Below the pieces are notes generated by a model that saw nothing but the letters and a program-made list of their open reading frames with translations, searched no databases and was not told the DNA's origin. From a virus, in the IMG/VR virus record IMGVR_UViG_3300033153_008390, positions 1 through 39,004 of that record: a DNA stretch of 39,004 nucleotides. One strand, given 5' to 3'. This document shows, one piece after another, positions 1 to 39,004 of this stretch (position 1 is its first letter; the number at the start of each line of letters is the position of its first letter). The translations under genes were made by a program, and so were the position numbers.

Positions 1-114
1 ACATCTAAAGTCTTCCTCAGATTCTTTTAATTCATCTTCCGTACATTCTAACGCTTCTAGTAATACTTTTCTTTCTAATAATAAAATCCCAGTAATAACA
101 ATTAACACTATAAT
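1..114. repeat. Terminal direct repeat, left copy (circular closure)
   Basis: These 114 bases are identical to 38891-39004. A small leftward gene reads straight through the junction without a frame change, so the repeat is the overlap of a circular assembly (or a circularly permuted/concatemeric genome), not a separate element. Confidence 0.95.
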
Positions 115-6194: not shown

Positions 6195-6224
6195 AAAAAA
6201 TAAAGCTAGGATATACCACCTAGC
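6195..6224 (-). terminator. Rho-independent terminator at the primase stop codon
   Basis: On the minus strand GCTAGG (6224-6219) pairs with CCTAGC (6210-6205) around an 8-nt loop and is followed by TTTATTTTTT. The TAG stop codon of the primase is inside the 5' arm of the stem. Confidence 0.85.
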
Positions 6225-8523
6225 ATGGTAGTTCGTTCTCAGTAAATTCTCAGTGTGTACCTTCTGGCATATTTAACATCTGGTCATCATTCTTATTGAT
6301 ATAGTAACCTCTGATAGTTTTACCCCTTATTCTCATTCTTTTCTTCTCATACCTATGGCTTAATCATAGATCAAAATTAGATTGTTTATATTTTATATCG
6401 AAAGAGTCTTCGCCAATATCAGTACAATATAAGTCTAATAAATAATTCTTCTCAATGTTTGTAATCTTATATACATGAGGGTATTTATTCTCAACCCATT
6501 CAAAGAATAGATTAGCAGAACCTTCACAGTTTTCTTCTAATTGATTCTTCTCAGCATTATCCAAAGCCTCCAATTGTGTCAAATAAGGAATTTCAGGGTA
6601 TGTTTCATATAGCCATGAGATATATTGTTTAATTACTTTTTTATCAGTAAGTGTTTCCTTATTTATTACAGATCATAGAGGTCATAAAGAATTCCCAGTT
6701 TTAATAATTGTAAAACGTCTATTCCCACTATGTTTACTATCCAACTGAATAGGTACAGCATGATTACTACTTAAATGAAACCGTGCAATATTATCAACCT
6801 CACGAACATCTCTATTCTTTTGATTCACACTAATAGTAGGTTCTCATACAAATGATTTGATCCTATCTAGTATCTTTTTATCGTTATGTTTATTACCAGA
6901 TGACACCTCTTTAAATTCAACAATTAGTTTATTTCAACTATAACTATCAAATGAACTTTCCAAATCCTTTTGTCCTAGTCCTACCTGAGTATTCACAGCA
7001 CCAAAGATTTTAGATAGTAAGTTCAAGAATGTCCCCTTACCAGATCATCCACTTCAATACAGAATCAAAGCTGGTAAATTAACATCATTCAAATGAGTTA
7101 ACTTATATAAGATTGATTGGTGTATCCATTTTGCATTCTTTTTCTTGTTACCTGATATATTAAGAATTAGTTTCTCTATATTTGGATGTAGGATAGGTTC
7201 TTCTTCTCAACCATGTGAAACAATTAATGATTCATCAAGTGTATTATAGAAACCTTTTTTACCTCAAGCTTTGTAACATAAGTCTTCGTATTGTGGTATA
7301 CTTCCACCCTGAACACATTGGAATAATTCCTTCTTTGTCATTCATAACGAACTTGCTACATTATCTGTTTTTTGGTATCTTTTATATTTAGTGTCATAGT
7401 ATTCTAAGTATTTATCTAACATGATAAATCTTTTATCTTGTTTCACATTATCTTCTCATACCACTTTTGTTTCACTGAATATCTTGTCCCACTTAACTTT
7501 TGTATCGTATCCTACTTTATAGAAGTCATTCACATCACTTAGTTTTTTCCCGTTTCTATCTTCTCTAATTGGATAGTCTATAGTATGAATAGGTCTTCAC
7601 ATGGTTTCAGCAAGTGCTAACTTACCACTTTCTCATGCTAAGTCGTTGTCATATAAACATATAACTTTCTCTACATCATATAATAATGATTTCAAGTAAC
7701 TACGTCCTGATTGTACTCAACCACAATTAGATATAATTCCTTTGTATCACATAATAGAAAGTATAATCCCGTCCATTTCTCATTCCACAACAATTGAAGT
7801 CTTTGGATTTATTGAATCATACATTAACCCAGTCTTTCCAACAGCAAGGCTTTTCTTTCCTCTGATTGTCTTTCAATCTTTCCTTCTTAGTTTCAGTCCT
7901 ATTAGGTTCTTAGACCCGTCATAACAAGGGAAAAGGAATACTGGCACAGTCTTTGGATTATCTCATTCTTTATTTATCCATTTATCATTATCATCTTTAG
8001 AAGTTGGATATTCCGTACAGAAGTAATTATCATAGTATCCAATATCCTTAAAGACTTCGCCTATCTTATTGATACTCTTACTTATAAAATCAGATGATAC
8101 TCATCTACTTAGTAGTAGCGAAGATATTTCTTTTTTATATCCTCATAATTTAAGAGAGTCAAATTGTTCTAGTAATTCAGTTCAACTTAATGATTTAACA
8201 AACTCTTTCTTTTGATCTGGAGCTTCTACTAATCCTTTATCTATGAACCATTTAACTGTCATTGCTTTCCCTACTGTTGACTGAGTGTCTTGTTTGAGTA
8301 AATATCTTCCGATGAAATCAAAAGGTCCTCACTCAACTCCATCTCAACCGAAGTCTTTGGCAATATTCTTACTTGAACTTACCTTAAAACTATTATTAAG
8401 AGTTCCATCGTCTTTTAATAGAGTATAAGTATGTGGCTGTCATGAGTCTTTCTTATATGAGATTCATGCAGCATCAAGTACTGTCAGAATTTCAAGGTCT
8501 TTTATTTTGTCAAAAATATCCAT
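6220..8523 (-). CDS. DNA primase-helicase (toprim domain plus D5-like SF3 helicase)
   Basis: 767 residues. The N-terminal third is followed by a toprim domain: IVVEGEMDGIILS near residue 240 (catalytic Glu) and VICLYDNDLAGE about 50 residues later (Asp-x-Asp). The C-terminal part is an SF3/D5-type ATPase: Walker A YGSGGSGKGT near residue 489, FKEVSSGNKHNDKK, and RFHLSSNHAVP (sensor-like Asn). It would prime and unwind at the origin; no replicative polymerase was recognised, so the host's is presumably used. Gly codons are mostly TGA, including inside Walker A. Start ATG 8521-8523; a terminator overlaps its stop codon. Confidence 0.92.
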
Positions 8524-8623: not shown

Positions 8624-8634
8624 TTATTAAATTA

Positions 8635-8708
8635 TGGTTCTCAGTTATGGGATCGAACCATAATTGACAGAGTCAAAGTCTGTAGTCCTACCATTAGACG
8701 AACTGAGA
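8635..8708 (-). tRNA. tRNA-Gln (anticodon UUG), CCA encoded
   Basis: 74 nt. Acceptor TCTCAGT pairs with ACTGAGA; U8; D-arm GTC/GAC with GG in the loop; anticodon stem ACAGA/TCTGT with loop CTTTGAC giving anticodon TTG; T-arm TATGG-TTCGATC-CCATA; discriminator A and CCA are in the DNA. It reads CAA, the dominant Gln codon of this genome. Confidence 0.93.
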
Positions 8709-8715
8709 ATATAGA

Positions 8716-8840
8716 GACCGAGACAAGGATTTGCACCTTGTAAGCTAATCGTCTTTATAGCCACTTACATTTTCCCACGATTCAAAGGAGGTTATCGAGA
8801 CCCCAAATCATTGTGCGTCTACCTATTCCGCCACTCGGTC
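8716..8840 (-). tRNA. tRNA-Leu-like RNA with a ~40-nt surplus; unresolved
   Basis: 125 nt on the minus strand. Acceptor arms GACCGAG/CTCGGTC pair perfectly, followed by TGGCGGAATAGGTAGACGCA, which is the tRNA-Leu D-arm almost to the base, and a T-arm-like hairpin ACAAGG-TGCAAAT-CCTTGT. Between them are ~70 nt instead of ~40, containing ATGATT/AATCGT and GTAAG...CTTAC pairings. A normal anticodon stem cannot be placed without removing an insert. The T stem is one pair too long and no CCA is encoded. It may be an interrupted tRNA, a degenerate one, or a tRNA mimic. Confidence 0.5.
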
Positions 8841-8844
8841 ATAA

Positions 8845-8923
8845 TGTATACTGGATTTATCTAATTTAATTGATTAAATATATTACCTTATAGGTAAAAA
8901 CATAGTCAAACCTCCAGTATACA
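8845..8923 (-). ncRNA. Branched structured RNA element closed by an 11-bp stem
   Basis: TGTATACTGGA (minus, 8923-8913) pairs perfectly with TCCAGTATACA (8855-8845). Inside are two hairpins, TTACC-tataa-GGTAA and ATTTAA-TCAA-TTAAAT, giving a three-way junction 79 nt long. It lies 4 nt upstream of the tRNA-Leu-like RNA. No known class recognised. Confidence 0.5.
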
Positions 8924-8936
8924 ATAGTATTTATTT

Positions 8937-8984
8937 TCCCCCTTTTTATCCTCCATTCACAAAGGCTTATTGTCATCAAGGGGA
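8937..8984 (-). ncRNA. Hairpin element upstream of the RNA block
   Basis: On the minus strand CCCCTT (8983-8978) pairs with AAGGGG (8944-8939), with an inner CCTTT/GGAGG helix. The element starts 7 nt after the stop of the 53-residue gene 8992-9153 and lacks a clear U-run, though AAAATAAAT follows. It could be a processing stem or attenuator. Confidence 0.4.
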
Positions 8985-8991
8985 GATTGTT

Positions 8992-9153
8992 TTATTTAAT
9001 TTTAATTTCTTCACAAAATTCTTTCATTTTTTTCTCACAGAATAATTCCATTTCAATGATTTTATCTTTTACAAATTCTTCCATATGTTTTTCTTGTTCT
9101 ATTCTGAAATCTTTCATATCAGAGTACGGATTATGTCCTGCCATTTTTGTCAT
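8992..9153 (-). CDS. Hypothetical small helical protein
   Basis: 53 residues, MTKMAGHNPYSDMKDFRIEQ, then an almost continuous charged helix (EKHMEEFVKDKIIEMELFCEKK is split here only by position, ending EEIKIK). It contains two Cys and no TGA. A pseudoknot-like RNA element lies directly upstream (9177-9242). No family recognised. Confidence 0.7.
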   Translation of the reverse strand: MTKMAGHNPYSDMKDFRIEQEKHMEEFVKDKIIEMELFCEKKMKEFCEEIKIK

Positions 9154-9176
9154 AATTTAATTCGTTTATAAATAAA

Positions 9177-9242
9177 ATGTCTCCTATAAGTAACTTGGGA
9201 TGAAAACTTATAAAAGACATACTATCTATAAAACCCCAAGTT
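9177..9242 (-). promoter_or_regulatory. Putative RNA pseudoknot leader
   Basis: On the minus strand a stem ATGTCT-tt-TATAAGT (9220-9206) pairs with ACTTATA-gg-AGACAT (9191-9177), 13 bp with one internal loop. Its 14-nt loop contains CCCAAGTT (9199-9192), which is complementary over 8 bp to AACTTGGG (9242-9235) upstream. Together this is an H-type pseudoknot, 23 nt before the start of gene 8992-9153. Confidence 0.55.
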
Positions 9243-9258
9243 TTGTTCTATAGATCTA

Positions 9259-9420
9259 TTATAATCACAGTCTCTTCTTTCTATGGTAGTATCACTGTTT
9301 CGTTATTCAGAAAGCTTCCCAAGTCTTAATCTTACTATCCTGCATAACCTTTATTTGCTCGTCAATCATTAATATCTGATTGTTCAAAGTCTCAAACTCC
9401 GTATCTGTTAATATAGCCAT
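9259..9420 (-). CDS. Hypothetical small protein, first gene of the leftward unit
   Basis: 53 residues: MAILTDTEFETLNNQILMID, a helix, then KTWEAFGITKQGYYHRKKRLGL, which looks like the recognition half of a small helix-turn-helix with a basic end. It begins 30 bp downstream of the leftward promoter -10 box at 9450-9477. An early regulator is plausible but unproven. Confidence 0.65.
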
Positions 9421-9449
9421 ATGTTTTTTATCGGTTAAGTTATAGAAGC

Positions 9450-9477
9450 ATTGTATTGATTATTACTTGAAAGTCAA
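9450..9477 (-). promoter_or_regulatory. Leftward promoter
   Basis: Minus strand TTGACT (9477-9472), 16-nt spacer, TACAAT (9455-9450). It matches the SSB promoter at 2298-2325 in nearly every position, including the ACTTtcAAGT inverted repeat, and drives the primase/helicase side. Confidence 0.8.
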
Positions 9478-9595
9478 AAGATAATATTAGTTTCCAGTAA
9501 AAAAGAATAGAAGATACTTATATATAATAGGTTATAAAATTCCATATATAAGGTAGAAGTATTTTATTAAATATTAAAAAGTATTAAAAGAATAC

Positions 9596-9629
9596 AAAAA
9601 GTATTAAAAAGATTTGACTTTGAAGTAAA
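9596..9629 (+). repeat. 34-bp promoter repeat, copy 2
   Basis: Identical to the minus strand of 2310-2343. It contains the -35 box and its palindrome. Confidence 0.9.
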
Positions 9630-38755: not shown

Positions 38756-39004
38756 CTATTTAATTAATTCATATAATCTATTAGCAGTTTTGTCTTTAGT
38801 TTCGTTAAATAAATGGAATTGATGTATATCCTCAACCTTATTTTTCAATACATTATAAGCATATAACTTTCTTTGGTATTTATTTTTTTCACATCTAAAG
38901 TCTTCCTCAGATTCTTTTAATTCATCTTCCGTACATTCTAACGCTTCTAGTAATACTTTTCTTTCTAATAATAAAATCCCAGTAATAACAATTAACACTA
39001 TAAT
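38756..39004 (-). CDS. Small membrane-anchored coiled-coil protein (continues at 1-138)
   Basis: Because 38891-39004 repeats 1-114, this is the same gene as at 1-138 seen from the other side of the cut: residues from about 9 onward and the stop TAG (38756-38758). The full gene is 38890-38756 plus 138-1, 90 residues. A GTG inside this copy would give an 80-residue product, but the ATG-started 90-residue reading across the junction is better. Confidence 0.8.
   Translation of the reverse strand: MIVLIVITGILLLERKVLLEALECTEDELKESEEDFRCEKNKYQRKLYAYNVLKNKVEDIHQFHLFNETKDKTANRLYELIK
38891..39004. repeat. Terminal direct repeat, right copy (circular closure)
   Basis: Identical to 1-114. See the left copy; one of the two should be dropped to obtain the 38,890-bp circle. 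Confidence 0.95.

Follow-up and report, generated by a model that had tools for sequence, protein, structure and literature searches.

The 125-nt RNA encoded on the minus strand at positions 8716–8840 of the window (the whole stretch of DNA analysed here, a phage record of 39,004 bases) is a member of a family of tRNA-like RNAs, termed type A, in which a hypervariable domain stands in place of the anticodon arm. A covariance model (R1) was constructed from 60 type A sequences with the window left out, and it recovered the unit at 8716–8840 with 71.2 bits and an E value of 2.4e-17, so the tRNA-like unit proposed in an earlier note on this DNA is real and has these limits. R1 assigns 67–93 bits to type A sequences, 33–58 bits to a second type (type B, below) and about 26–41 bits to ordinary tRNA-Leu. 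It found no second match elsewhere in the window or in nine related-phage contigs, none of which covers the cassette region.

The earlier note had described a cassette of four RNA units on one strand inside the replication operon. Location and strand are correct, with all four units on the minus strand between a 53-aa ORF and the primase gene, and a multi-RNA segment combining a tRNA with a tRNA mimic is present. Of the four units, the tRNA-Gln and the tRNA-like RNA stand, while the branched element and the hairpin lack solid support. The features are:

6220–8523, minus strand: primase/helicase-like protein (Toprim, DUF5906), directly downstream of the cassette
8635–8708, minus strand: ordinary tRNA-Gln(UUG) (ARAGORN; Rfam RF00005, 58.8 bits)
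8716–8840, minus strand: tRNA-like RNA, type A as defined here, 125 nt (R1, all core features)
8716–8722, minus strand: acceptor stem 3' strand CUCGGUC, followed by U at position 73 and no CCA
8723–8741, minus strand: T arm ACAAGG-UGCAAAU-CCUUGU, 6 bp, loop with G55 (type A family feature)
8742–8814, minus strand: variable domain, 73 nt, replacing the anticodon and variable arms (from the sequence)
8815–8831, minus strand: D arm GCG-GAAUAGGUAGA-CGC, tRNA-Leu type, A at loop position 17 (identical to the type A consensus)
8834–8840, minus strand: acceptor stem 5' strand GACCGAG, pairing with CUCGGUC at 7/7 positions
8842–8926, minus strand: branched element, candidate extra RNA, with a long closing stem (arms 8842–8855 and 8913–8926) and two inner hairpins
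8937–8985, minus strand: hairpin of the earlier note, z −0.9, not terminator-like
8992–9153, minus strand: 53-aa ORF, directly upstream of the cassette (from the sequence)
9450–9477, minus strand: promoter-like site TTGACT-16-TACAAT, 10/12 match

Anatomy of the unit and its neighbours

The unit runs in the order acceptor, D, insert, T, acceptor, and combines a 7-bp acceptor and a 6-bp T stem with the UGCAAAU loop and the A at D-loop position 17. Its variable domain ends in UU, where the family has AU before the T stem, and the last U occupies the position of U48; the helix closing the insert is short, and the insert carries an extra arm. Tested as a tRNA, 8716–8840 gave no Rfam match at E 5 and no ARAGORN match at the normal threshold. 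The folding energy of the unit alone is unremarkable (z −0.9), and a plain fold would therefore miss it.

The neighbouring tRNA-Gln was confirmed by both ARAGORN and Rfam RF00005 with its UUG anticodon, and it fits the codon use of the phage, because CAA is the dominant Gln codon (252 CAA vs 40 CAG). An Rfam search of the cassette stretch, even at E 5, returned nothing besides this tRNA, and Rfam placed no ROOL or GOLLD RNA in the window. The closing arms of the branched element form an inverted repeat with 13 of 14 positions paired (93% complementary), and its core (8846–8923) folds with z −2.8, an unusual value, though not the only one of its kind in the window. It matches no Rfam family at E 5 and is a possible extra RNA. 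The fourth unit of the proposed cassette, the hairpin at 8937–8985, folds at chance level, and the terminator scan was likewise negative.

A 114-bp direct repeat occupies the record ends (window 1–114 and 38891–39004), and one contig (L010) spans both ends at 100% identity, so the map closes circularly and the record is probably complete, although listed as linear. Among the minus-strand products are a primase, a helicase and an HNH nuclease, and among those of the plus strand a DNA methylase, a terminase, a portal and a major head protein. Genetic code 25, assumed in the earlier note, is supported by the Walker A motif of the primase (GSGGSGKG), in which TGA codes for glycine. Judged by its sequence, the promoter-like site at 9450–9477 would drive transcription of the early operon including the cassette. 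An extended form of this motif (TTGACTTTsAAGTAA...) is repeated at 9441–9478, 9596–9629 and 2289–2343. It precedes each of the two divergent operons and, in the minus-strand copy near 2320, the SSB-like gene. The strongest fold among the sampled windows (z −5.9) lies at 9150–9260 on the minus strand, a long hairpin whose 3' arm holds AGGAG ahead of the 53-aa ORF and whose loop CCCAAGU is complementary to an upstream ACUUGGG, forming a possible pseudoknot; this hairpin may act as a translation regulator. No relatives covering the cassette were found: the contigs retrieved with primase, helicase, SSB-like and terminase sequences all end before it, and the terminase A1 query had no match among the genome contigs.

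Conservation and covariation of type A

The first search pattern combined a tRNA-Leu D arm, an over-long spacer of 60–90 nt and a loosely defined T arm, and it matched at least 120 viral contigs; among the 80 of these that were examined, ARAGORN recognised an ordinary tRNA in just 2. The matches split into two types. They differ in the D loop (A in type A, U in type B), in the T loop (UGCAAAU vs UUCGAAU) and in the length of the T stem (6 bp vs 5 bp); type B, whose members also contain inserts, is nearer to normal tRNA-Leu. Both loop positions were free in the pattern, so this linkage was not built in. Type B shows a recurrent acceptor, AGUCAGG, in many viral contigs from L012 to L086 (e.g., L036 2397–2521 and L015 718–843).

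We collected 123 distinct type A sequences. Their plan consists of acceptor, D and T arms of tRNA-Leu type, arranged as in a normal tRNA, with a 7+6-bp acceptor/T branch and a hypervariable insert of 57–150 nt where the anticodon arm would be. The acceptor pairs at 7/7 positions in 102 sequences, the T stem has 6 bp in 116, and the one extra position that gives a 13-bp branch is present in 121, even though 85 different acceptor 5' strands occur. Across 79 type A core sequences, 98.7% of cells are paired compared to 74.4% after shuffling, covariation scores 0.670 compared to 0.161 after shuffling and no more than 0.133 after sliding, and 10 pairs carry double changes. The D arm belonged to the search pattern and its conservation is partly by construction, but the pairing of the acceptor and T stem is not, and it is the covariation of these two stems that is decisive. 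The U preceding the T stem, at the position of U48 (the Levitt partner of A15), is at least 90% conserved, which argues for a real tRNA fold.

These data bear on two readings of the unit as a tRNA. The absence of an anticodon arm beside a live tRNA gene would suit a decaying tRNA-Leu pseudogene, but the covariation contradicts this: perfect 7-bp acceptor and 6-bp T stems, with 85 acceptor strands still pairing, indicate selection, and we give decay almost no weight. A functional tRNA-Leu, or another tRNA, with an intron in the anticodon loop is scarcely more credible. The D arm is of tRNA-Leu type, and ARAGORN with the intron option and a relaxed threshold draws a cloverleaf, although with a mismatched anticodon stem; at the normal threshold it finds nothing even when introns are allowed, and Rfam has no match. 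Moreover, no anticodon arm is common to type A, with anticodon-type hairpins in the inserts showing no excess (45 observed vs 41.5 expected), and G55 replaces U55. Bacterial tRNA-Leu needs A73, whereas position 73 is unconserved in the 123 type A sequences (A in 60, U in 38, C in 13 and G in 12); CCA is encoded in 1 of them. The intron-bearing tRNA was rejected after the ARAGORN trial.

The family appears to be undescribed. It has no match in Rfam 15, is mostly unannotated in GenBank phages, and is treated in no paper that we found in the openly licensed literature; an earlier description elsewhere is possible. Its apparent novelty rests on these three points together.

Carriers and genomic places

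Type A RNAs are widespread in phages. BLAST and R1 placed them in Lactobacillus phage Satyr, Bacillus phages phi3T and SBSphiJ, Enterococcus phage EFDG1 and Listeria phage vB_LmoS_188; BLAST with one Listeria member found no match among the named phages, while other members did match. The phage feature tables are empty under nearly all matches, and a few records have a hypothetical ORF there. Phage phiFL2A (L205 2479–2529) encodes a 51-nt form consisting of the body without the insert. The earlier note had seen a special relevance of the cassette under a recoded genetic code; this link is not supported, as RNAs of this kind are commonest in standard-code Bacillota phages. In bacterial genomes the type A pattern occurs at 71 loci, mostly in Bacillota (including Listeria, Paenibacillus, Levilactobacillus, Bacillus and Clostridia), with further loci in MAGs labelled Alphaproteobacteria, Bacteroidales, Neomarinimicrobiota and Methanoperedens. 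Among randomly drawn genomes it was present in 2 of 198 other Bacillota and 0 of 149 other Pseudomonadota, a rarity that marks type A as a mobile RNA and not a core cellular one.

The relatives that we checked keep the tRNA-like body and differ in the insert. For example, a viral contig (L074) and EFDG1 share the scaffold and differ in the inner domain (134 nt vs 209 nt). One phage contig (L085 11363–11737) has three tandem R1 matches of 62.8, 80.2 and 33.5 bits, two of type A strength and a weaker third. A contig with a type A RNA also contains a twister-sister ribozyme match (L049 2892–2961).

The genomic places of type A are varied. EFDG1 and Satyr carry it inside tRNA islands, and an ordinary tRNA lies within 600 nt in 21 of 92 copies, on the same strand in all 21. 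ROOL is separated from type A by 14 nt in L039 and by about 2.2 kb in L152. Many other copies stand at the late switch, where ArpU-type regulators lie on one side and small terminase or HNH genes on the other, and the phiFL2A form lies between ArpU regulator and terminase genes. Such copies, close to genome ends and flanked by late regulators and the small terminase gene, would fit a cis-acting operon RNA that folds like a tRNA and serves as a transcription switch, a packaging element or a late-operon leader. The window copy lies in the early replication operon, others lie in tRNA islands, and L085 has its three tandem matches; places this varied are not expected from a fixed cis role, which we consider improbable, though by no means negligible.

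Relation to Y RNAs

Bacterial YrlA RNAs, the tRNA mimics closest to type A among those known, end in a basal stem and contain an internal tRNA-like domain that mimics the D, T and acceptor arms (PMC8394870), and YrlA has been proposed, but not tested, as a competitive inhibitor of an anticodon nuclease (PMC7790460). The P100-like phage CKA15 is reported to produce very abundant RNAs near its tRNA genes and to encode a Ro-like protein, and Y RNAs were proposed for it (PMC12282133). The window unit could accordingly be read as a phage Y RNA (YrlA-like) tethering a Ro60/Rsr protein to a nuclease such as PNPase. The shared mimicry of the three tRNA arms speaks for this reading, as does a divergent type A copy within that same tRNA island in Listeria phage P100 (126403–126543). 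Of 42 records searched for the Ro-like domain DUF2828, five contain it, and each of these five also has a type A RNA.

Several lines of evidence oppose it. The order of YrlA is permuted, in that the T arm is followed by a closed acceptor hairpin and the D arm and a basal stem forms the ends, whereas the arms of type A stand in normal tRNA order, and the Rfam YrlA model (RF02553) has no match in the window at E 1. In EFDG1 the YrlA-like matches adjoin the DUF2828 gene, 3 kb from a separate type A RNA. TROVE occurs in only 2 of 96 carrier records, both of type B, and in 0 type A records, and DUF2828 was not found in the window, which appears complete. On the basis of TROVE, DUF2828, Rfam YrlA and topology, the YrlA identity of 8716–8840 was rejected, and we regard it as very unlikely, although an Rsr encoded by the host could still be a partner. 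In P100-like phages, type A could still overlap with Y RNAs in function.

Some observations concern phage Ro and Y RNAs in their own right. The DUF2828 gene of EFDG1 (L202/L332, 42269–43111) stands beside two sub-threshold YrlA-like RNAs at 43405–43695 and forms with them a candidate phage Ro/Y RNA pair; in the YrlA-like RNA the T arm, closed acceptor hairpin and D arm are a circular permutation of the tRNA order. P100 (L208–L210) encodes gp165 (DUF2828/DUF7788, Ro-like; 121570–123090) about 620 bp from its tRNA island; gp165 probably corresponds to CKA15_055. A TROVE-domain protein of a large phage (L329 6606–8231) has a tRNA array about 3 kb downstream. A scan for permuted tRNAs mainly returned tandem tRNAs, with a possible closed acceptor in 5 of 78. 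Two contigs (L233 7480–7700 and L280 140–360) contain an apparent nested RNA, in which an outer tRNA-like body holds at the anticodon position an inner domain that is permuted and YrlA-like and whose acceptor hairpin is closed (TTGGCCGGCACTATCGGCCAA).

Possible function

Type A RNAs cannot decode, since the hypervariable domain replaces the anticodon arm. For 8716–8840 we favour, at roughly even odds, a non-decoding phage tRNA mimic that is processed from the operon transcript and acts on a host factor that binds or cleaves tRNA. RNase P and RNase Z would excise the RNA from the early operon transcript, as for the neighbouring tRNA-Gln. The L-shaped, tRNA-Leu-like body would shield it from nucleases and could dock where tRNA elbows dock, and the fast-changing insert may confer specific action, most likely by occupying or inhibiting the host factor. 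Inhibition of a tRNA-acting host factor would explain both the frequent place in tRNA islands and the rapid turnover. Action on tRNA-targeting defence, which the earlier note had suggested, is one reasonable hypothesis. No effector motif is recognisable in the variable domain. Against the favoured mechanism, many copies stand at the late switch and not in tRNA islands, a distribution that fits a cis or packaging-linked role equally well.

The main rival of the favoured mechanism is a tRNA-scaffolded regulatory RNA, in which the insert serves as a guide or antisense and the body only as a scaffold for stability and processing, a natural counterpart of the laboratory tRNA scaffold. The conserved body, with a hypervariable insert exchanged between relatives, agrees with this arrangement, and so does the helix closing the insert two nucleotides before the T stem (47% of type A sequences vs 12% of shuffles). 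On the other hand, the window insert has no above-chance complementarity within the phage's own sequence, though host targets are possible, and the strong conservation of tRNA-like tertiary positions points to a role of the body beyond stabilisation. We estimate the chance of such a scaffolded antisense RNA at somewhat over one in five.

More speculatively, the family could represent a large, undescribed class of phage RNAs in which a tRNA-shaped chassis bears exchangeable effector domains directed against host tRNA-acting defences or other factors. Related phages would retain this chassis and exchange the domain that it bears, and the class would extend from phages of Bacillota to recoded ones whose presumed hosts are Gracilibacteria or SR1; we favour this generalisation only tentatively. 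Research on tRNA-cleaving defences now centres on phage tRNA regions, yet a non-decoding tRNA mimic that is abundant in model phages (phi3T, SBSphiJ, EFDG1 and P100 type) appears to have gone almost unannotated and has no Rfam match. Tractable laboratory systems allow the RNA to be deleted and overexpressed, which opens its function to direct tests.

Comparison with known systems

Phage T4 stable RNAs C and D are small non-tRNA RNAs within the T4 tRNA cluster, and they offer a functional parallel to type A with no sequence relation implied. The staphylococcal cell-wall tRNA-Gly lacks T-psi-C, having U54-G55 in place of T-psi, and is kept out of translation; it is charged, has an anticodon and serves peptidoglycan synthesis. 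Type A resembles it in U54-G55. ROOL and GOLLD are ornate phage and prophage RNAs of unknown function that are also encoded near tRNA islands (PMC12286853), and ROOL (RF03087) and GOLLD are unrelated to type A in sequence and size. YrlA (RF02553) and type A are both non-coding, have a tRNA-like D/T/acceptor body with no anticodon arm, and occur in bacteria and phages. The acceptor of YrlA is closed by a loop, whereas type A has an open acceptor, the order D, insert, T, and mostly no Ro60 gene. Phage tRNA-Leu (RF00005) and type A share the acceptor/D/T plan, the D-arm sequence and the site beside tRNAs; type A differs in its 7+6-bp branch, G55, the unconserved base 73, the missing anticodon arm and the hypervariable insert. 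Type A shows the extent to which a tRNA body can be rebuilt with its tertiary core kept.
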